Shown: piece by piece, positions 2,451-9,475 of the stretch
Position numbering within the stretch: position 1 is the first letter of the stretch
Layout: every line of letters starts with the position of its first letter
Origin: an uncultured Oscillospiraceae bacterium
GTDB lineage: Bacteria > Bacillota > Clostridia > Oscillospirales > Acutalibacteraceae
DNA: 9,475 bases
Assembly: GCA_900552985.1 (NCBI GenBank)
Contig: USBP01000031.1
Location: 1-9,475, forward strand
Direction of reading: 5' to 3'
Notes under the pieces: model-generated
What the model was told of the DNA's origin: nothing
Database searches by the model: none
Seen by the model: only the letters and a program-made list of their open reading frames with translations
Translations under genes and position numbers: made by a program

Positions 2451-3503
2451 ATGGCGGAAGACAAGAACAGACCGGATCAGAGCCAGGGCGAAATTGTAAT
2501 TTATCAGGCCGAAGATGGACTCACAAAGGTAGAGTGCCGGTTTGTAGATGAAACCGTTTGGCTGACACAGCAGCAGATGGCGGAACTGTTCCATACATCC
2601 AGAAGCAACATTGTGGAGCATATCGGCCACATCTATGAAGAAGGCGAACTGGATGAGACTTCAACCTGTCGGAAATTCCGACAGGTTCGAATGGAAGGTA
2701 ACCGGCAAGTATCAAGAGAGTTACCTTTTTACAATCTGGACATGATCATTTCTTTGGGGTACAGAGTAAAATCCTTGATTGCCACCCAGTTTCGCCGGTG
2801 GGCTACCGAGCGCCTGAAAGAATACATGATCAAGGGCTTTACGCTAGATGATGAGCGCCTGAAAAATTTGGGCGGCGGCAACTACTGGCATGAGCTGCTG
2901 GAACGGATTCGGGACATTCGTTCTTCGGAAAAAGTCATGTATCGTCAGGTGTTGGACTTGTACGCCACCAGCGTGGACTATAACCCCAGAAGTGCGGAAT
3001 CTGTTGCGTTTTTCAAAATGGTGCAGAACAAGCTCCATTATGCGGCGCACGGACATACGGCTGCGGAAGTGATCTATGAGCGGGCTGATGCGGATAAGCC
3101 GTTTATGGGGCTCACCACTTTTTCAGGGGATTTCCCCACGGCAAAAGATATTGGGATTGCCAAGAATTATCTGACAGAGGAAGAACTTCGGGTTCTGAAT
3201 CAAATGGTATCCGGTTATTTCGACTTTGCCGAGGTGCAGGCCATTCGTCACCGGCCCATGTACATGAGCGATTATGTGGAGCAGCTGGATAACATTCTTC
3301 GGGCGACTGGGGAAGAAGTATTGACCCATGCAGGAAAAATCAGTCATGCACAGGCGATGGAAAAAGCAAAAGCGGAATATAAACGCTATCAGGCACAAAC
3401 TCTTTCCCCTGTGGAGGAAGAATATCTAAAGACCATTAAGCAGCTGGGAAAAACGGCCAAGTCGGAAGCGGAGAAGCAGGATGATACTTCTGCCCCCAAA
3501 TAA
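2451..3503 (+). CDS. rhuM: RhuM-family protein
   Basis: 350 residues, close to the normal length for the virulence-protein RhuM family; the molecular function of the family is not established. ATG at 2451 follows GGGAG (2437-2441) at nine bases. Residues 14-70 contain the conserved start (EIVIYQAEDGLTKVECRF, ETVWLTQQQMAELF) with an HTH-like element (QQMAELFHTSRSNIVEHI, about 41-58), so DNA binding is plausible. The segment TCRKFRQVRMEGNRQVSRE (72-90), the FYNLDMIISLGYRVKS core (93-108), HYAAHGHTAAEVIYERAD (196-213) and the MYMSDYVEQLD segment (270-280) are family hallmarks. A charged tail (320-350) ends it. RhuM genes are commonly carried by pathogenicity islands and mobile elements, as cargo. 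Here it lies between relaxase and recombinase, 33 bases before the first possible recombinase ATG. A perfect 12-bp-arm palindrome is embedded in codons 71-79. Confidence 0.88.
   Translation: MAEDKNRPDQSQGEIVIYQAEDGLTKVECRFVDETVWLTQQQMAELFHTSRSNIVEHIGHIYEEGELDETSTCRKFRQVRMEGNRQVSRELPFYNLDMIISLGYRVKSLIATQFRRWATERLKEYMIKGFTLDDERLKNLGGGNYWHELLERIRDIRSSEKVMYRQVLDLYATSVDYNPRSAESVAFFKMVQNKLHYAAHGHTAAEVIYERADADKPFMGLTTFSGDFPTAKDIGIAKNYLTEEELRVLNQMVSGYFDFAEVQAIRHRPMYMSDYVEQLDNILRATGEEVLTHAGKISHAQAMEKAKAEYKRYQAQTLSPVEEEYLKTIKQLGKTAKSEAEKQDDTSAPK
2663..2687. repeat. Perfect palindrome inside rhuM
   Basis: AACCTGTCGGAA (2663-2674), one central A (2675) and TTCCGACAGGTT (2676-2687) form perfect 12-bp arms. 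The codons spell T-C-R-K-F-R-Q-V, a conserved stretch of the family, so part of the symmetry may follow from the protein. A 12-of-12 match with a one-base centre is nevertheless striking. It could bind a dimeric protein or form a cruciform; as RNA the loop would have to open slightly. Confidence 0.6.
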
Positions 3504-3551
3504 AAGCGGTTCATCCAATTTTACGATAGGCACCACATGAGGAAGATTAAG

Positions 3552-5237
3552 ATGCAGAAAGAGAAGATAAAAGTTTATACTTATACCAGAGTTTCCACCG
3601 CTATGCAGGTAGACGGCTACTCGCTGGAGGCGCAAAAGGCCAAAATGAAAGCCTACGCAGACTATAACGATTATGAGATTGTTGGGGAATATGAGGATGC
3701 GGGAAAGTCCGGCAAATCCATTGAAGGACGGGCGCAATTCAGCCAGATGATGGAGGACATCAAATCCGGAAAAGATGGCGTGTCCTATGTTCTGGTATTC
3801 AAATTGTCCCGCTTCGGCAGAAATGCGGCGGACGTGCTTTCTTCCCTTCAGGTCATGCAGGATTTTGGCGTCAATCTGGTATGTGTGGAGGATGGCATTG
3901 ATTCTTCCAAGGATGCGGGGAAACTGATGATTTCCGTCCTCTCGGCAGTGGCCGAGATTGAGCGGGAAAATATCCGTGTCCAAACCATGGAGGGCCGCAT
4001 CCAAAAAGCAAGGGAGGGCCGCTGGAATGGCGGCTTTGCCCCCTATGGGTATCAGCTGGTGGATGGGAAACTGATGATCAACGAGGAAGAAGCGGAGGCA
4101 ATCCGCGTCATCTATGACCAGTATGTGCATACGGATATTGGCGCAAACGGAATTGCAAAATATCTGGAGAACCATGGCATCCGTAAAATTCCCCGGCAGA
4201 ATGGAAAGAATCCCCTGTTTGACGCACATTTGATACGCTTGATTTTGAAAAATCCGGTGTACTGCGGGAAAATCGCCTATGGCCGACGCAAGACGGAAAA
4301 AGTTCGAGGAACAAGGAACGAATATAAACTGGTGGAGCAGGACAACTATTTGCTTGCAGACGGGCAGCATGAAGCGATTGTTTCGGAAGAAGTCTGGCAA
4401 GCGGCGCAAGTGAAGCTGCTGGCACAAGCAAAAAAATATGAACACGTCAACCGCGGGAAGGACGAGCACGTACATCTTCTTTCCGGCATTGTAAAGTGCC
4501 CTGTCTGCGGAGCAGGAATGTATGGGAACAAAAGCATCAAGCGCAAAGCGGACGGCAGCAAGTATAAGGATTTTTACTACTACGGCTGTAAGCATCGCTC
4601 CATGATACGCGGACACAAGTGTGATTACAAAAAGCAGATTCGGGAAGAATTGCTGGACGATGCCGTGGCGGAAGTCATTGTAAAGCTGGTGAGCAATCCG
4701 AAGTTTGCTGCCATGATGCAGGAAAAAATCAACATGAAGGTAGATACTGCCGCCATTGACCAGGAGATTGCAAATTACGAGAAGCAGCTACGCCAGCACT
4801 ATTCCGTCAAATCAAAGCTGGCGGAGGAAATTGACTCTCTCGACCCGGATGATCGGCACTATGTGCGGCGCAAGGCTGATCTTGATAACCGCCTTTACAG
4901 GATGTATGATAAGATTGAAGATACAGAATCGCTGCTGATTGCAGCCAGAGCCAAAAAGCAGGCCATTGAAGCGGAAAAGCTGACCGGCGACAATATCTAT
5001 AAAGTGCTGATCTATTTTGAAAAACTGTACGGCGTGATGAATGAGGCGGAGCGGCGGCAGTTGATGGAGACGCTGATCTCTGAGATTCAAATTTACCCGG
5101 AACGCCAGCCCAATGGTCAGTGGCTCAAATCCATCAAATTTAAGCTGCCGATCATTGAGGAGGATATGAGTATTAGTTTGGACGATGAAGAACAAGTTGA
5201 GACGGTGTGCTTGTTGTCCAGGCTTTCTTCTGAATAG
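3552..5237 (+). CDS. Large serine recombinase (integrase/excisionase of the element)
   Basis: 561 residues from ATG 3552, preferred because GAGGA (3539-3543) lies eight bases upstream; an in-frame ATG at 3537 (566 residues) has only a weak AGG. It integrates and excises the element by site-specific recombination through a 5'-phosphoserine intermediate. The resolvase domain (about 7-150) has YTRVSTAMQ with catalytic S15 and the conserved KLSRFGRN (84-91). A recombinase domain (about 160-290: APYGYQ, EAEAIRVIYDQY, LKNPVYCGK) is followed by a zinc-ribbon with C316-x2-C319 and C346-x10-C357, then a long coiled coil (about 402-475), which in this class controls synapsis. It is the last gene of the element, like TnpX/TndX-type recombinases. 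The final residues, V549-E-T-V-C-L-L-S-R, match the C-terminal tail of RlmD-type rRNA methyltransferases, suggesting that the last codons come from the host attachment site. Confidence 0.93.
   Translation: MQKEKIKVYTYTRVSTAMQVDGYSLEAQKAKMKAYADYNDYEIVGEYEDAGKSGKSIEGRAQFSQMMEDIKSGKDGVSYVLVFKLSRFGRNAADVLSSLQVMQDFGVNLVCVEDGIDSSKDAGKLMISVLSAVAEIERENIRVQTMEGRIQKAREGRWNGGFAPYGYQLVDGKLMINEEEAEAIRVIYDQYVHTDIGANGIAKYLENHGIRKIPRQNGKNPLFDAHLIRLILKNPVYCGKIAYGRRKTEKVRGTRNEYKLVEQDNYLLADGQHEAIVSEEVWQAAQVKLLAQAKKYEHVNRGKDEHVHLLSGIVKCPVCGAGMYGNKSIKRKADGSKYKDFYYYGCKHRSMIRGHKCDYKKQIREELLDDAVAEVIVKLVSNPKFAAMMQEKINMKVDTAAIDQEIANYEKQLRQHYSVKSKLAEEIDSLDPDDRHYVRRKADLDNRLYRMYDKIEDTESLLIAARAKKQAIEAEKLTGDNIYKVLIYFEKLYGVMNEAERRQLMETLISEIQIYPERQPNGQWLKSIKFKLPIIEEDMSISLDDEEQVETVCLLSRLSSE
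5193..5212 (+). other. Predicted attR within an rlmD (rum) 3' end
   Basis: Codons CAA GTT GAG ACG GTG TGC encode Q-V-E-T-V-C, followed by LLSR. RlmD/RumA-type methyltransferases of Firmicutes typically end in H-V-E-(T/C)-V-V-L-L-S-R. The serine-recombinase ICE hotspot reported in the streptococcal rum gene reads CACGTGGAGTGCGTAG, which aligns codon for codon here. The GA at 5199-5200 would be the natural crossover dinucleotide. The attL copy and the body of rlmD should lie to the left, outside the window. This is an inference from sequence resemblance and known biology. Confidence 0.55.
5199..5237 (+). pseudogene. rlmD: Displaced 3' tail of host rlmD, read as the recombinase C terminus
   Basis: If attR is placed correctly, the codons from GAG 5199 to TAG 5235-5237 (E-T-V-C-L-L-S-R-L-S-S-E) are the original end of the host 23S rRNA (uracil-C5)-methyltransferase gene, now fused in frame to the recombinase. 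The host gene would have received an equivalent tail from the left end of the element, so methyltransferase function is probably kept. Only about 12 codons are involved, so the call depends on the motif. Confidence 0.45.
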
Positions 5238-5506
5238 GTGGAATCCGCAGCGGGCAAAGGAAAATGTGCTTTCATCCAACACCACGGGAGGCAGTATTCT
5301 CCTTGTGGCAGACTGCCCGGGTTTAGAGCGCTGGAAAATTTTTCGGAGAGAAAAGTGAGTGTTGGGAAGTCTGCAGGTCGAAAGCAGGGGGGACAACCGC
5401 AGAGGCGAGAACGCCTCCAGCGCCTGATTGGGAAGCGCCGGCAATCGCTTACACTAAAAGAAATGTTTTCAAGAAGTTTTTTCGAGAGCGGCGTTTGAAA
5501 CGAAGA

Positions 5507-5559
5507 ATCGCCAAGGGCACGAAAGCTGTCAGCATTCGCGCTTTTGGCGATGAGTTTTT
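5507..5559 (+). terminator. Possible intrinsic terminator for the + strand
   Basis: ATCGCCAA (5507-5514) and TTGGCGAT (5544-5551) are perfect eight-base inverted copies; AAAGC/GCTTT inside them can form an inner stem. GAG and then a run of five T (5555-5559) follow. The loop is longer than usual and the T-run is short and offset, so termination may be weak. It would end transcripts of the recombinase or, originally, rlmD. Confidence 0.4.
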
Positions 5560-5594
5560 AACGCAGGATTGTGCAACTCAGAAGGGACCTTGTT

Positions 5595-5613
5595 TCAACC
5601 TGTTTCAGGTTGA
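5595..5613. repeat. Compact hairpin
   Basis: TCAACCTG (5595-5602), loop TTT, CAGGTTGA (5606-5613): a perfect eight-base stem with a three-base loop. No T-run follows on either strand. It lies about 55 bases past the stop of the lipoprotein flavodoxin gene and may shape the 3' end of that operon's transcript. Confidence 0.45.
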
Positions 5614-5620
5614 TCGATAG

Positions 5621-5665
5621 GGCAACCGCTTGTTGAGAAGGCATTATTTTGAAAGAGCGGTTACC
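5621..5665 (-). repeat. Inverted repeat just past the flavodoxin operon stop
   Basis: GGCAACCGCT (5621-5630) and AGCGGTTACC (5656-5665) are inverted copies with one mismatch in ten and a 25-base loop. Read on -, it begins three bases after the stop of the last operon gene, the usual place for a terminator, but no T-run follows, so it may stabilise the transcript end or act with a Rho-dependent stop. Confidence 0.4.
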
Positions 5666-5667
5666 GT

Positions 5668-6330
5668 TTAGTGGATTGTGTCGAGCCACGCCTGCAAATC
5701 GGAGGCTGAGGCGCTGCCGCTGAATCGCTCGCCGGAAAGCCATGTGCCGCTCCCGGCCAGGGTGGCCAGCTGCTCTCCGCTGGCCCCAATGCCGCTGCCG
5801 CCGGAGGTGCAGAAGGGGATCACCGTGATCCCGTCAAAATCATAGCTTTCCACAAAAGTGCTCATGATGCGGGGCGCCTGCCCGTGCCAGATGGGATAAC
5901 CGAGATACAGGGTAGAATATTGCTCAATCGCAATCGGTTCACTGCCGATTTGAGGGCGGGCATCCGGGTCATCCATCTCCAGCGAGGTGCGGCTCTGCTC
6001 GTTGCCATAGTCCAAATCCTCTGAGGTGTATGGGTCAGCCGGGAGGATTTCATAGAGCGCTGCGCCGGTAATCTCTGCAAGCTTTTCGGCTACCGCTTCT
6101 GTGTTGCCGGTTGCGGAAAAATAGGCGACCAGAGCGCCGGTGTTTGCCGGTGATGGCCGGCTTTGTTCTGCCGTCCGGCTGCCGGCCGGGGGATTTGTTT
6201 CTGCCGCACTGGGGGCTTGCAGCCCGTTTGTATTTTCCTCTGCCGGGGCGCCGCCCTCTCCACAGGCAGATAAAGCGAACACCAGGCAGGCAGTCAGAAA
6301 CAAACCAAGGATTCTTTTTGCTTTTTGCAT
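5668..6330 (-). CDS. Lipoprotein flavodoxin
   Basis: 220 residues. The N terminus is a lipoprotein signal: basic MQKAKR, hydrophobic ILGLFLTACLVFAL (7-20) and lipobox L20-S-A-C23. A Ser/Pro/Glu-rich linker (about 24-62) puts the domain at a distance from the membrane. Residues 66-220 are a flavodoxin-like domain: phosphate loop S72-A-T-G-N-T77 after the first strand (LVAYF), SLEMDDPDARP (116-126), GYPIWHG (144-150) and TSGGSGIG (175-182). FMN binding and electron transfer outside the cell membrane are expected from the family; the partner is unknown. It shares most motifs with the cytoplasmic flavodoxin upstream in the operon, so the two are paralogs. ATG at 6328-6330 follows GGAAGGG at about eleven bases. 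It is the last gene of the operon, 35 bases after tetR. Confidence 0.87.
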   Translation of the reverse strand: MQKAKRILGLFLTACLVFALSACGEGGAPAEENTNGLQAPSAAETNPPAGSRTAEQSRPSPANTGALVAYFSATGNTEAVAEKLAEITGAALYEILPADPYTSEDLDYGNEQSRTSLEMDDPDARPQIGSEPIAIEQYSTLYLGYPIWHGQAPRIMSTFVESYDFDGITVIPFCTSGGSGIGASGEQLATLAGSGTWLSGERFSGSASASDLQAWLDTIH

Positions 6331-6365
6331 CGCGTTTCATTCCCTTCCGTTTGTAATTGGCCCTG

Positions 6366-6995
6366 TCACTGAAAGGCCTGCAGCTGCTTTGTGACAAAGG
6401 CCTTTGTAATCTCGTAGATGGAATAGCGGGCGTACTCCACATGGGCAAGCTCCATGGCCTTCTGCTGCTTTTCCGTTGCGGTCGTGTAAGGATAAATCCC
6501 GAATAAAAACGGGAAAAAGGCATAGAGAAAGCCCTGAATATCGCCTGCCGTCATGCGGGGGAAAAAGGCTTCCAGGCAGTGAGTGACCGCCCGCATTGCA
6601 CCTGCATAAACCGTTTTAAACGCCACAAGGTTTTCGATACGGCTGTTGCCCTCCATATCATAGAGGTTCATGGAGAGCAGTTTAAGCATGCAGTCGCGCT
6701 TTTCCAGCGTGTGGGCAAGCGCATCTGCGAGCTCTGCGGCGGAACGGGCGGCGTCCTTTTGCGGAATCGATTTTAAATCCGCAATCCACGCCTCATATTC
6801 TCTTTGCAGCAGCGCAAGGAAGATCTCCTCCTTCGTCTGGAAATAGTTATAGATGGAGGTGCGGGTAAAGGAGGTTTTTGCGCCAATATCCCGAATGGTG
6901 ATATCCTTAAACCCCATTGTTTCATAGAGGGCGGCACAGGCGTTGATGATTTCTTCTTTCCTGGCATTTGTCAGTTCTTCTGAGCCTTTTGGCAT
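6366..6995 (-). CDS. TetR/AcrR-family transcriptional repressor
   Basis: 209 residues, a normal length. The N-terminal DNA-binding domain is clear: ARKEEIINACAALYETMGFKDI (11-32), HTH IRDIGAKTSFTRTSIYNYF (34-52) and the following QTKEEIFLALLQREYE helix. The C-terminal part (about 75-209) is helical, with a hydrophobic FLYAFFPFLFGIYPYT segment (155-170); this domain forms the dimer and would bind a small ligand that is not known. ATG at 6993-6995 has AGAAGGGG about eight bases upstream. It sits between the two flavodoxin genes (23 and 35 bases apart), so it belongs to the operon and probably controls it: two TGACAC-type palindromes lie at the promoter upstream of the first gene. Confidence 0.92.
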   Translation of the reverse strand: MPKGSEELTNARKEEIINACAALYETMGFKDITIRDIGAKTSFTRTSIYNYFQTKEEIFLALLQREYEAWIADLKSIPQKDAARSAAELADALAHTLEKRDCMLKLLSMNLYDMEGNSRIENLVAFKTVYAGAMRAVTHCLEAFFPRMTAGDIQGFLYAFFPFLFGIYPYTTATEKQQKAMELAHVEYARYSIYEITKAFVTKQLQAFQ

Positions 6996-7018
6996 GGTAA
7001 GCCCCTTCTCTTATGGAT

Positions 7019-7489
7019 TTAGAGATTCAGCGCCTGTTTCACCCAGTCCGCCGCGCCGGCGCCGTTTAAAAGACGGCCCTCTTTCCAGTGCGCGTTGGGG
7101 CAGTGCGCTTTCAGGCTCTTTTCCGCCTTGCCAATGCCGCTGCCGCCGGAGGTGGCAAAGGGGATCACCGTTTTGCCGGAAAAATCATAGCTTTCCAGAA
7201 AGGTATCCACAATGCGGGGCTCTACATACCACCAGATGGGGAAGCCGATCAGAACCGTATCGTACTGCTCCATTGCCTGCACAGGCTCCGCAATGGCTGG
7301 GCGGCAGGCGGGGTCGTTCATCTCCAACGAGCTGCGGCTCATTTGATCCATCCAGTTGAGATCCGCAGGGGTGTATGGCTGTTCCGGGCGGATCTCATAG
7401 AGCGCCGCGCCCACAGCGCTTGCCATTTCCTGCGCTGCGCGGGCGGTTACACCGCTGGCAGAAAAATAGGCGATCAAGGTTTTACGCAT
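7019..7489 (-). CDS. Cytoplasmic flavodoxin
   Basis: 156 residues with no signal peptide. The first strand LIAYFS (5-10) leads into the phosphate loop S10-A-S-G-V-T15; further marks are SLEMNDPACRP (54-64), GFPIWWYVEP (82-91) and TSGGSGIG (113-120). It is expected to carry FMN and move electrons in the cytoplasm. The loop has GVTA where the lipoprotein paralog has GNTE, so FMN affinity may differ. ATG at 7487-7489 is preceded by AGGAGG (complement of 7498-7503) at eight bases, one of the best ribosome binding sites in the window, which suggests high expression. Second gene of the operon, 23 bases after the DUF362 gene. DNA identity with the lipoprotein gene is high around the TSGGSGIG codons, consistent with duplication. 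Confidence 0.88.
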   Translation of the reverse strand: MRKTLIAYFSASGVTARAAQEMASAVGAALYEIRPEQPYTPADLNWMDQMSRSSLEMNDPACRPAIAEPVQAMEQYDTVLIGFPIWWYVEPRIVDTFLESYDFSGKTVIPFATSGGSGIGKAEKSLKAHCPNAHWKEGRLLNGAGAADWVKQALNL

Positions 7490-7512
7490 GATGGTTGCCT
7501 CCTTTGGCGATA

Positions 7513-8403
7513 TTACAGCTCAATCAGTTGATATTCCCGGGAACCGAAGCCCAGGGCGGCGGCAGCCTCTATGGTATGAATCCCGTTGCGGCTGTTGACA
7601 CGCTCCATGAAGTGTTCTTTCCCAGGATCATCGGAGTTGACGACAAGGTCGATGCATGCCTGATCGATGGCCACAGGGTCAAGGGAGGCGAGCATGCCGA
7701 TATCCTGCATGCAGGGATCCTCCGCCACAACGCAGCAGTCGCAGTCCACTGAGAGATTCTTCATCACGTTAATGAAGGCGATTTTTCCCTTGAAATGCTC
7801 CGCCACGCTGGAGGCAGCGTCCGCCATGGCCTCGGGGAATGCGATGTTGCTGGCGTGCTGCCGCCAGGTTTCAAACCGGTCGTCCGTTTTCCCTGCGGAG
7901 TGGATCAGAGCCTTGCCCGCGCGGGAGGCGCAGCCAATGGCGAGTTGCTTGAGCGCGCCGCCATAGCCGCCCGCAGGATGACCCTTGAAGTGCGCCAGCA
8001 CCAGCATGGAATCATAATGGACAATATTTTTGCCCACATGATTTTCTTTGAGGATTTTGCCGTTGGGAACTGGCCAGATGATATCCGGGCCCTCGGCGTC
8101 CATTAAATCCACGTCAAAATAGCGCGTCCAGCCATGCTCCTCCAGGAGCTTGCGGTGCGTTTCCGTGTGATCCCGCACGCCGCCGGAGGCGTCGCCATAG
8201 GCGGTGTTGCACTCCACAACCGTACCGTGCACCTCTTCAACCATGGGGCGCCAAAATTCCGGACGTAGAAAGTTTTGGTTCCCCTGCTCGCCGGAGTGAA
8301 CCTTCACGGCCACTTTGCCGGGCAGCCGAATCCCCAAAGCATGGTACAGCTTTACGACCGCTTCCGGGGTGATTTCCCGTGTGAAATAGACCTTTGATTG
8401 CAT
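7513..8403 (-). CDS. DUF362-domain protein
   Basis: 296 residues. The domain runs almost the whole length: VAVKVHSGEQGNQNFLRPE (31-49), VVECNTAYGDASGGVRDHTE (62-81), a GHPAGGYGGALKQLAIGCASRAGK core (141-164) and LDPVAIDQACIDLV (241-254). DUF362 proteins are thought to be linked to iron-sulfur or redox metabolism, and many carry a two-cluster ferredoxin insert. No C-x2-C-x2-C-x3-C motif is present here, but there is a cysteine cluster C221-x-C223-C224-x6-C231 that could bind a metal or cluster. ATG at 8401-8403 has GGAGGG (complement of 8410-8415) six bases upstream. First gene of the operon under the TetR-controlled promoter; the two following flavodoxins make a redox role likely. The reaction is unknown. 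Confidence 0.83.
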   Translation of the reverse strand: MQSKVYFTREITPEAVVKLYHALGIRLPGKVAVKVHSGEQGNQNFLRPEFWRPMVEEVHGTVVECNTAYGDASGGVRDHTETHRKLLEEHGWTRYFDVDLMDAEGPDIIWPVPNGKILKENHVGKNIVHYDSMLVLAHFKGHPAGGYGGALKQLAIGCASRAGKALIHSAGKTDDRFETWRQHASNIAFPEAMADAASSVAEHFKGKIAFINVMKNLSVDCDCCVVAEDPCMQDIGMLASLDPVAIDQACIDLVVNSDDPGKEHFMERVNSRNGIHTIEAAAALGFGSREYQLIEL

Positions 8404-8470
8404 CGTAAGCCCTCCTGAAATCGTTTATGATGTGCTGCTTTATGGGTAGGGATGATTTCCATACTCATTC

Positions 8471-8483
8471 TGACACAATGTCA
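8471..8483. promoter_or_regulatory. Operator 1 (likely TetR site)
   Basis: TGACACAATGTCA contains a perfect TGACA/TGTCA inverted repeat with a three-base centre. It lies immediately downstream of the expected start point of the - strand promoter, where a bound repressor would block the polymerase. It matches operator 2 at 11 of 13 positions. Confidence 0.65.
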
Positions 8484-8491
8484 TCATTTGT

Positions 8492-8520
8492 ACTATAACA
8501 CTATTTTGACACTGTGTCAA
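8492..8520 (-). promoter_or_regulatory. Promoter of the DUF362-flavodoxin-tetR-flavodoxin operon
   Basis: On - strand, TTGACA (8520-8515) and TATAGT (8497-8492) are separated by 17 bases: a perfect -35 and a one-mismatch -10 box. Transcription would start near 8485, giving a leader of about 80 bases before the DUF362 ATG. Operator 2 covers the -35 box and operator 1 the start region. Confidence 0.78.
8506..8520. promoter_or_regulatory. Operator 2 (likely TetR site over the -35 box)
   Basis: TTGACACTGTGTCAA is a perfect palindrome of seven-base arms around a central T. Its right arm is the -35 hexamer of the operon promoter, so binding there would exclude RNA polymerase. Size and symmetry suit a TetR dimer. 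The centre lies 36 bp from that of operator 1. Confidence 0.75.
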
Positions 8521-8685
8521 TACAGATTTAACCTTAATAATAGAAATGAGACGTTGGATTTGGGAGCCAGAAAGCTTGTGCCCCAGGAGGCGATAACAGA
8601 AAGCGTTTTAGGAGAGAGGATTTTTAATGCGTTTCCTCTGCGGCAAGGGCTGGCTGTTTCCTCCTTTACAATCTCATTTCAATAT
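8521..8685. other. Short gene-free stretch between operon promoter and terminator
   Basis: No gene supported. A long + strand frame runs from 8452 through here into the antisense of the next gene but starts within the operators and crosses a strong - strand terminator. There is a purine-rich AGGAGAGAGGA at about 8608-8620 followed by an ATG at 8627 on +, but the frame behind it is antisense to a better supported gene. Confidence 0.4.
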
Positions 8686-8714
8686 AAAAATGACAGCGCT
8701 CCAAAGAGCGCTGT
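8686..8714 (-). terminator. Intrinsic terminator of the YHGS gene / hflX transcript
   Basis: ACAGCGCTC (8693-8701), loop of four, GAGCGCTGT (8706-8714): a perfect nine-base GC-rich stem. Read on -, the stem is followed by CA and five T (complement of 8686-8690). It lies 20 bases past the stop of the 142-residue gene, a textbook Rho-independent terminator. Confidence 0.88.
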
Positions 8715-8733
8715 ATCAGAAAAAGATGCATGT

Positions 8734-9162
8734 TCAGCGATTCGCTTTTTGGGGTTCGACGGAAGGGAGATTAGAAAGAGAGTCTACGCCCTGTGCTTCG
8801 TTTCGTTTGCCCTGCGCTTTGGCTTTGAGGCGCCTGGCGGCGGAGCGATGCGCCTTTGTATCCGGCCGCCCCAATTCGGCAATCAAACGCACACGCAGCG
8901 GCCTTGTGGTCAGATATTCTGCGCCTGGCGGAAGTGTTGTGCGCGGGTGTGGGATGAAATCCGTTTCTGCATGAAAAGGCTCCACGATATAGAGAAAACC
9001 TCTTCTTCGACCGTTATGCAGGATCGTTCCATCTTCCTCACAGGAGAGCAAAGACGGCTTGTGTGAAAAGGATTCTGCCAGTGCTCGATTGGGGGTGACA
9101 GTACTCCCTGCGCGCAGAACGGTGAAACGCCGGTTGGAGCCGTGATACCACTTTGTAGTCAT
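8734..9162 (-). CDS. Small YHGS-motif protein, possible ADP-ribosyltransferase-like fold
   Basis: 142 residues. ATG at 9160-9162 with AGAGAAG about eight bases upstream; the stop is followed by a strong terminator, which supports the gene over overlapping + strand frames. The N terminus WYHGSNRRFTVLRAGSTVTPNRALAESFSHKPSLL (5-39) has the 'YHGS ... GS' start that small ADP-ribosyltransferase-like and related toxin or RNA-repair domains show. FLYIVEPF (56-63) and PHPRTTLPPGAEYLTTRPLRV (71-91) look like following strands with a possible late glutamate (E82). This fold assignment is tentative. The last 45 residues are basic and Arg/Lys/Ala-rich, perhaps an RNA-binding or disordered tail. It begins 30 bases after hflX and is probably co-transcribed. 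No antitoxin-like partner is visible. Confidence 0.7.
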   Translation of the reverse strand: MTTKWYHGSNRRFTVLRAGSTVTPNRALAESFSHKPSLLSCEEDGTILHNGRRRGFLYIVEPFHAETDFIPHPRTTLPPGAEYLTTRPLRVRLIAELGRPDTKAHRSAARRLKAKAQGKRNEAQGVDSLSNLPSVEPQKANR

Positions 9163-9192
9163 CTTTCCATCTTCTCTTTTTCTACCGTTCGG

Positions 9193-9475
9193 TTATTCGA
9201 GAATATATTGTTTTACCAGATCTATCAAATATAGTTCAGCTGTAGCTTCTAGATAGATTCCGCTTTCGCGGTATTCCTCCGCATGGATGACGCCCTCTTT
9301 GCGCAGCCGCGCGGCAAAGCTGCCCATATCAAATGGCAACAGGAGCTTAACCCTGCGGCGGGAGGCGGGCAGGGCGTCTGTAATCGTGTGGAGCAGCTGC
9401 TCCAATCCCCGGCCCAGCAGGGCGGAGATCATCACAGTGCGCCCGATGGCGGGCAGAGCGTAGACGTCGCCCGCC
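9193..9475 (-). CDS. hflX: GTPase HflX, C-terminal fragment
   Basis: 93 residues are visible, open to the window edge (5' end cut). The fragment reads AGDVYALPAIGRTVMISALLGRGLEQLL, which holds the G5-type SA motif (ISALLGRGLEQLLHTI), and continues through RRRVKLLLPFDMGSFAARLR and EEYRESGIYLEATAE, the C-terminal domain typical of HflX. HflX binds the large ribosomal subunit and splits or rescues stalled ribosomes, especially under stress. The G1-G4 motifs are upstream. It is the first visible gene of a - strand unit with the YHGS gene, 30 bases apart, ending at the terminator at 8686-8714. Confidence 0.9.
   Translation of the reverse strand, partial: AGDVYALPAIGRTVMISALLGRGLEQLLHTITDALPASRRRVKLLLPFDMGSFAARLRKEGVIHAEEYRESGIYLEATAELYLIDLVKQYILE

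Follow-up and report, generated by a model that had tools for sequence, protein, structure and literature searches.

Why should a site-specific recombinase end like an rRNA methyltransferase? In the window, our name for the whole stretch of 9,475 nucleotides analysed here, a large serine recombinase (integrase) of 566 residues is encoded at 3537–5237 on the + strand and ends ...SLDDEEQ-VETVCLLSRLSSE-stop. A sequence-only reading of this DNA had likened that end to the C terminus of RlmD and had placed an attachment site, attR, inside the recombinase gene. The likeness is real, and the same kind of end is seen in intact rlmD genes from the family to which the host likely belongs. We consider it very probable that the recombinase ends in a displaced host rlmD 3′ end, acquired when the element that encodes it recombined inside rlmD.

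The recombinase and the right end of its element

The window begins within a mobile element, of which it covers the right-hand portion, and continues into host chromosome; of the two junctions only the right one is visible. The element genes found in it lie on the + strand and are the C-terminal part of a D5-like primase/helicase (1–541, cut by the window start; PF03288, E 3.9e-06), a Mob_Pre relaxase (1200–2180; PF01076, E 3.8e-53), an element-borne RhuM-family protein (2451–3503; PF13310, E 6.7e-112) and the recombinase, which carries the Pfam domains Resolvase, Recombinase and Zn_ribbon_recom (PF00239, PF07508 and PF13408). The recombinase is the element's last gene and its frame crosses the right junction. 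From the presence of its own recombinase and a Mob_Pre relaxase in the window, the element is likely to be an integrative and mobilizable element; in one relative, G007, the element junctions lie ~16.7 kb apart. Ahead of the relaxase operon, at 600–960, no gene was recognised and similarity to the related loci L004 and L009 breaks at ~620–660; this stretch could contain an origin of transfer or a leader. Comparison of the window with plasmids, phages and viral contigs (one of these searches by a single exact pattern) gave no useful match, the phage matches amounting to three records that cover 1–3% of the query, all at 7127–7408, and an Rfam scan of the window at gathering scores returned zero matches.

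The end of the recombinase frame is made up of Gln553 (5193–5195), Val (5196–5198), Glu (5199–5201), Thr (5202–5204) and further codons up to the stop (5235–5237). As relatives we kept the best 80 of 178 confirmed genome loci, with 81–97% identity to the recombinase, and the DNA around the Glu codon was aligned in 80 rows, the window and 79 relatives (L066 was left out). Conservation breaks at the GA of the Glu codon, window 5199–5200. Mean pairwise identity in the closest group of 13 rows falls from 0.889 in the 36 bases ahead of GA, with 1.0 at GA itself, to 0.444 in the next 36; across all 80 rows it is 0.735 before GA, 0.93 and 0.97 at its two bases and 0.425 after, and 76 of the rows have the exact GA. 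The alignment suggests that the exchanged dinucleotide is probably this GA. The element side of attR (5181–5200, + strand) is the conserved recombinase sequence ...GAC GAT GAA GAA CAA GTT GA, and the predicted crossover core, GAGAC, occupies 5199–5203 (+ strand) in the Glu-Thr codons. Since we predict that recombination with the element took place within the Glu-Thr codons of rlmD, the stretch at 5201–5237 (+ strand), which encodes the last 11 recombinase residues (TVCLLSRLSSE) and the stop, is likely to be a host-derived rlmD 3′ end.

Reciprocal 3′-end exchange with rlmD in close relatives

Comparison of 77 distinct recombinase tails with 72 distinct rlmD tails identified four recombinases that match intact rlmD-type ends of other genomes, with 94–99% DNA identity over a span that starts at the Glu codon and includes the stop and the next 60 bases. 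The matching pairs are L008/G450 (0.99), L033/L105 of G001 (0.98), L054/L233 of G502 (0.95) and L034/L233 (0.94). Two other pairs are alike in residues and poor in DNA, namely L055/L187 (all residues; 54% in DNA) and L053/L105 (from Glu on; 70%).

The first of these matches provides a before-and-after pair, G450 with an empty site and G007 with a filled one, whose flanks are 96% identical. The intact rlmD of G450 ends HVETVVLLRKAAP-stop. The G007 recombinase ends QIETVVLLRKAAP-stop and is followed by DNA as found after rlmD in G450, and the G007 rlmD ends in 103 element-type residues, of which His is counted as the first, and has its stop ~14.8 kb before the recombinase start. The junctions read CATGTG-GAGAC-CGTCGT at attB (G450), CATGTG-GAGAC-GGTAGT at attL (G007) and CAAATC-GAGAC-CGTCGT at attR (G007), and it is these bases that place the crossover within GAGAC. 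By comparison of such loci, rlmD and the recombinase are shown in the relatives, which come from other gut bacteria, to swap 3′ ends reciprocally and in frame at a 5-bp core. Two proposals made from the window's letters, that attR lies inside the recombinase gene and that rlmD is the target, are thereby borne out in close relatives, and the crossover falls within the interval 5190–5215 given for the junction, the G450/G007 pair confining it to 5199–5203. Completion of both reading frames by integration, the third proposal, is likewise seen in close relatives, with the qualification that what rlmD regains is an element-type tail of ~102 residues and not its own. An empty site was also sought in the genera of G005 and G001, where none was usable; a recombinase that ends in the same tail occupies the site in G438, and only short matches came from the remaining genomes of G001's genus.

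The left junction can be followed through the rlmD gene that would lie upstream of the recombinase. Family-model searches for rlmD covered 30 genomes (12 + 18) among those with the 80 relatives' loci, and distances to the recombinase were worked out by hand. Eighteen of the 30 have an rlmD-type gene on the strand and contig of the recombinase and upstream of it, within ~25 kb in 14 genomes (L001, L002, L006, L008, L009, L011, L018, L019, L023, L031, L046, L047, L056 and L064) and at ~34–73 kb in four (L048, L052, L076 and L079, the two genes probably sharing one contig in L076). Contigs were equated by their length, which differs slightly between the two records for L076 (1292500 and 1293679). 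All of these genes except one, 17 of the 18, end in an element-type tail of 102–107 residues counted from Val; the exception is L011, in which the rlmD-type gene 14.7 kb upstream keeps its native tail. The re-tailed genes include that of the Streptococcus caballi relative (L079, recombinase 81% identical), ~34.5 kb upstream on the same strand; L006 and L008 come from the gut isolates Gemmiger sp. An120 and Pseudoflavonifractor sp. An184. An rlmD so placed was not found in 12 of the 30 genomes; in eight of them the contig reaches less than 15 kb upstream (L003, L004, L005, L007, L010, L012, L044 and L078) and in four it reaches ~17–37 kb (L022, L037, L072 and L077). Left-junction tails that were unreadable were left out (L219, L236, L239, L242 and L243).

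The core quoted for streptococcal insertions is CACGTGGAG; rlmD of the element-free relative G050 reads CACGTGGAGACGGT at the crossover point, and CAYGTGGAGACGGT is common at the left junctions of relatives. Similar attR tails of a VETIVLLQRxxx-like kind recur, together with the DNA that follows, in several unrelated hosts (L003, L012, L033, L036, L046, L049, L052, L053, L057 and L077). The DNA just after the recombinase stop in these loci is mostly TAGAAATCCTT...GGCACTTT, and the tail of L033 matches an rlmD paralogue of G001, hinting that for tails of this kind the common target may be a conserved rlmD paralogue with its downstream DNA.

For the window we propose the same exchange. In the circular element, attP would lie inside the recombinase gene; attB lies within the last motif of rlmD (HVETVxLLSR), and exchange at GAGAC preserves the frame on either side. 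The rlmD gene at attL would keep its body and gain from the element a TVxLLSK-type stretch and ~95 further residues, as seen in 17 relatives, and at attR the recombinase would gain the short rlmD tail and its stop, as shown in relatives and inferred for the window. The rlmD of the window's host would before insertion have ended ETVCLLSRLSSE-stop, followed by the DNA now at 5238–5660. Given this exchange of 3′ ends at attL and attR, the recombinase encoded by the circle would end in a tail of ~102 residues. No circular form was seen; 10 of the 80 aligned recombinases carry a tail of this ~102-residue type in the chromosome.

The donor of the window's tail

The host chromosome flank at 5661–9475 is 94% identical to contig C32 of G050, the closest empty-site relative among the matches listed. 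Two flavodoxin genes, a TetR regulator and a DUF362 protein lie on one strand at 5668–8403, parts of which match, among the matches listed, in 141 of the 398 genomes drawn from the likely host family, that of G004. The flank also includes a 3′ end that looks like that of hflX; the C-terminal fragment at 9193–9474, from which the family of the host was guessed, was matched in 33 of 40 genomes, best in G036 (49%) and G004 (47%). On G050:C32, rlmD (+ strand) ends ...DLFPRTGHVETVCILSARQNCEEAE-stop and stops ~770 bp left of the shared block, with a reductase-like gene between. As rlmD adjoins the shared block there, the window's element sits where rlmD should end.

A comparison with an element-free relative had been suggested as a check, and G050 offers one: rlmD adjoins the shared flank, but its 3′ end matches the window only at the core. 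Across 5201–5660 the alignment to G050 consists of one 18-base match (83%, E 0.81), so that we suppose either a replacement of this sequence in one of the lineages or a tail that arrived by way of another element. Its part that separates the recombinase stop from the host synteny block, 5238–5660, has no credible alignment to the G050 interval and is uncovered by any match among the matches listed for the 398 family genomes, and on inspection alone no element gene was recognised in it. It holds a strong predicted hairpin at 5490–5570 (−37.8 kcal/mol) that has no Rfam match.

In the likely host family, 340 of the 398 genomes gave rlmD matches and the loci of the 30 best were read. Tails were readable in 27 (the others being L181, L185 and L197), of which 21 are native and 6 element-type, two of the latter cut by the stretch end. 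Counted from Val, the 21 native tails span 9–17 residues and the window's tail has 13. We regard host rlmD as the likely donor of that tail.

One alternative keeps the exchange mechanism unchanged and changes only the donor, the tail having come from the left end or a remnant of another element inserted in tandem at the same rlmD site. This would account for a 5201–5660 stretch with no G050 counterpart beyond the core, and G183, the one other genome of G050's genus in the comparison, has an rlmD with a 115-residue element-type tail. Residues after Glu in the 80 aligned rows number 5–113, with 20 or fewer in 62 rows, 21–60 in 8 and 99–113 in 10, so that 18 tails exceed 20 residues; the long-tailed chromosomal recombinases would fit a position adjoining the left end of an older element, and the long tail of the recombinase in L019 and L056 is of a different type from that on the upstream rlmD, as if two elements had met. 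Against this, VETVCLLSRLSSE agrees in length and motif with native rlmD tails from the likely host family, 5238–5660 is free of recognised element genes and of covering matches within the scope given above, and a second recombinase was found neither beside the long-tailed ones in ten loci nor, as a PF07508 match, on the same contigs in L019, L044 and L056. At most, a repressor-like repeat in L056 hints at a trace of a second element. We regard a tandem origin of the window's tail as unlikely.

The element might instead occupy a secondary site, in another gene or in an rlmD paralogue with a similar core. Related hosts do carry rlmD paralogues, the rumA-kind element CTn5 is known from both an adhesin gene and rumA in the accessible text of its description (PMC4320837), and L011 and the four loci with long upstream contigs show no re-tailed rlmD upstream; yet rlmD adjoins the matching flank in G050 and the window's tail reads as an RlmD end, and we hold a secondary site to be very improbable. 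Least credible of all is a constant C terminus that belongs to the recombinase itself and resembles RlmD by accident. Most of the 80 aligned rows do continue with VET-like residues, as a constant tail would have it, but the tails vary in sequence and in length, and the four that share 94–99% DNA identity with intact rlmD-type ends complete the case on which this candidate was rejected. Insertion into the host's own rlmD, with displacement of its 3′ end onto the recombinase, is the reading that we retain.

The donated tail and known systems

The tail that rlmD receives begins TVxLLS in most copies, restoring the motif cut by the crossover, and 13 columns are invariant among 24 aligned copies. 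A Nei-Gojobori comparison of 22 copies, with the first nine codons trimmed, gave dN/dS of 0.02–0.33 in every listed pair (60–99% residue identity) with a finite dS, many distant pairs being saturated in dS. By this codon-level measure purifying selection acts on the donated tail, and for that reason we think that RlmD is probably re-tailed, not destroyed. A protein search returned 4343 proteins of similar length that carry it, and 29 of the best 120 of these, by hand count, have the PF05958 methyltransferase domain.

No convincing Pfam family (best 0.026), no relative among solved structures (best 0.011) and no significant match in a fold comparison were found for the donated tail, the last with a predicted model of three helices and mean pLDDT 64. 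Weak matches were obtained with HTH_33 in 3 of 24 members (best 0.073) and with an IS630 transposase model in 8 of 24 (best 0.0011), and together with the three predicted helices they lead us to guess at a helix-turn-helix-like fold. The phage family phrog_27283, of unknown function, matches 22 of the 24 tails (best 3.7e-14). Locus L050 has two copies of the tail, at L050:3069–3413 and L050:6153–6497, 95% identical and ~3 kb apart, the second with no recombinase or rlmD frame directly before it; the pair may represent a small passenger element or a former attachment site. In three proteins, P0025, P0086 and P0091, the tail is fused to PadR-like, ABC-transporter-like and different resolvase-like N termini, respectively, which may represent secondary-site insertions or assembly chimaeras.

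Integration could amount to a protein-domain switch, in which a conserved tail of ~100 residues, its core helix-turn-helix-like, passes from the recombinase of the circle to host RlmD and a short tail is returned. We offer this tentatively and consider it rather doubtful at present. If it were true, state-specific recombinase C termini would constitute directionality control without a separate factor, and a host rRNA methyltransferase would carry an element-encoded, possibly DNA-binding domain. The question raised is whether the long-tailed recombinase of the circle and the short-tailed recombinase of the integrated element differ in direction or activity. More immediately, the recombinase C termini of the window's family depend on the insertion site, and any comparison, cloning or modelling of these recombinases should start from sequences truncated at the Glu codon. 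A base-level map of the att sites is also provided here. For rlmD itself, a heavily used integration hotspot, the findings suggest re-tailing with a selected domain and not breakage.

The exchange as such has a precedent. The gene rumA is the same as rlmD, and in the accessible text of Ambroset et al. 2016 (PMC4701971) the rumA-specific single serine integrases of streptococcal ICEs have attR inside the integrase gene; on integration rumA and the integrase gene trade their 3′ parts, so that both C termini change in sequence and length, and the authors expect that the two integrase forms may differ in function. Integrases of this group have Resolvase and Recombinase domains, usually joined by a zinc-ribbon domain, and the window's recombinase has all three. 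Reciprocal 3′-end exchange between rumA and a serine integrase gene is thus already published. What is added here is the purifying selection on the donated tail and the tail's predicted move to the recombinase in the circle. Our literature search, with most subscription journals outside it, returned no report, in the texts accessible, of selection on a donated tail or of a domain switch between recombinase and RlmD.

In their accessible parts, PMC5357655 and PMC5704250 place the rumA site within the gene, and PMC5704250 treats it as disruptive; here both frames are kept. According to the available portion of van Eijk et al. 2015 (PMC4320837), CTn5 fused rumA to a small element frame; CTn5 is an ICE, found in an adhesin gene of one strain and in rumA of its derivative, and that portion does not discuss the integrase tail. 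A gut element described in the consulted part of PMC12904643 lies in MAFF2 genes, not in rlmD. The Erysipelothrix prophage phiEr670 is flanked by rlmD, which in the accessible text of PMC12785378 also flanks prophages in other Gram-positive bacteria, but it is a prophage and that text describes no gene-end exchange. The myxophage Mx8, cited as a precedent in the accessible text of PMC4701971, has attP inside its integrase gene, as proposed here, but its integrase is a tyrosine integrase, its host belongs to another phylum and that text does not name rlmD in connection with it; there, integration trades a 112-residue C terminus for 13 residues and activity is lowered (Magrini et al. 1999, as cited in PMC4701971). 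Among these closest known systems, the streptococcal rumA ICEs share with the window's family an attR in the integrase gene and the exchange of 3′ ends, whereas the window's element is likely mobilizable, with a Mob_Pre relaxase, and its host is probably a gut clostridium.
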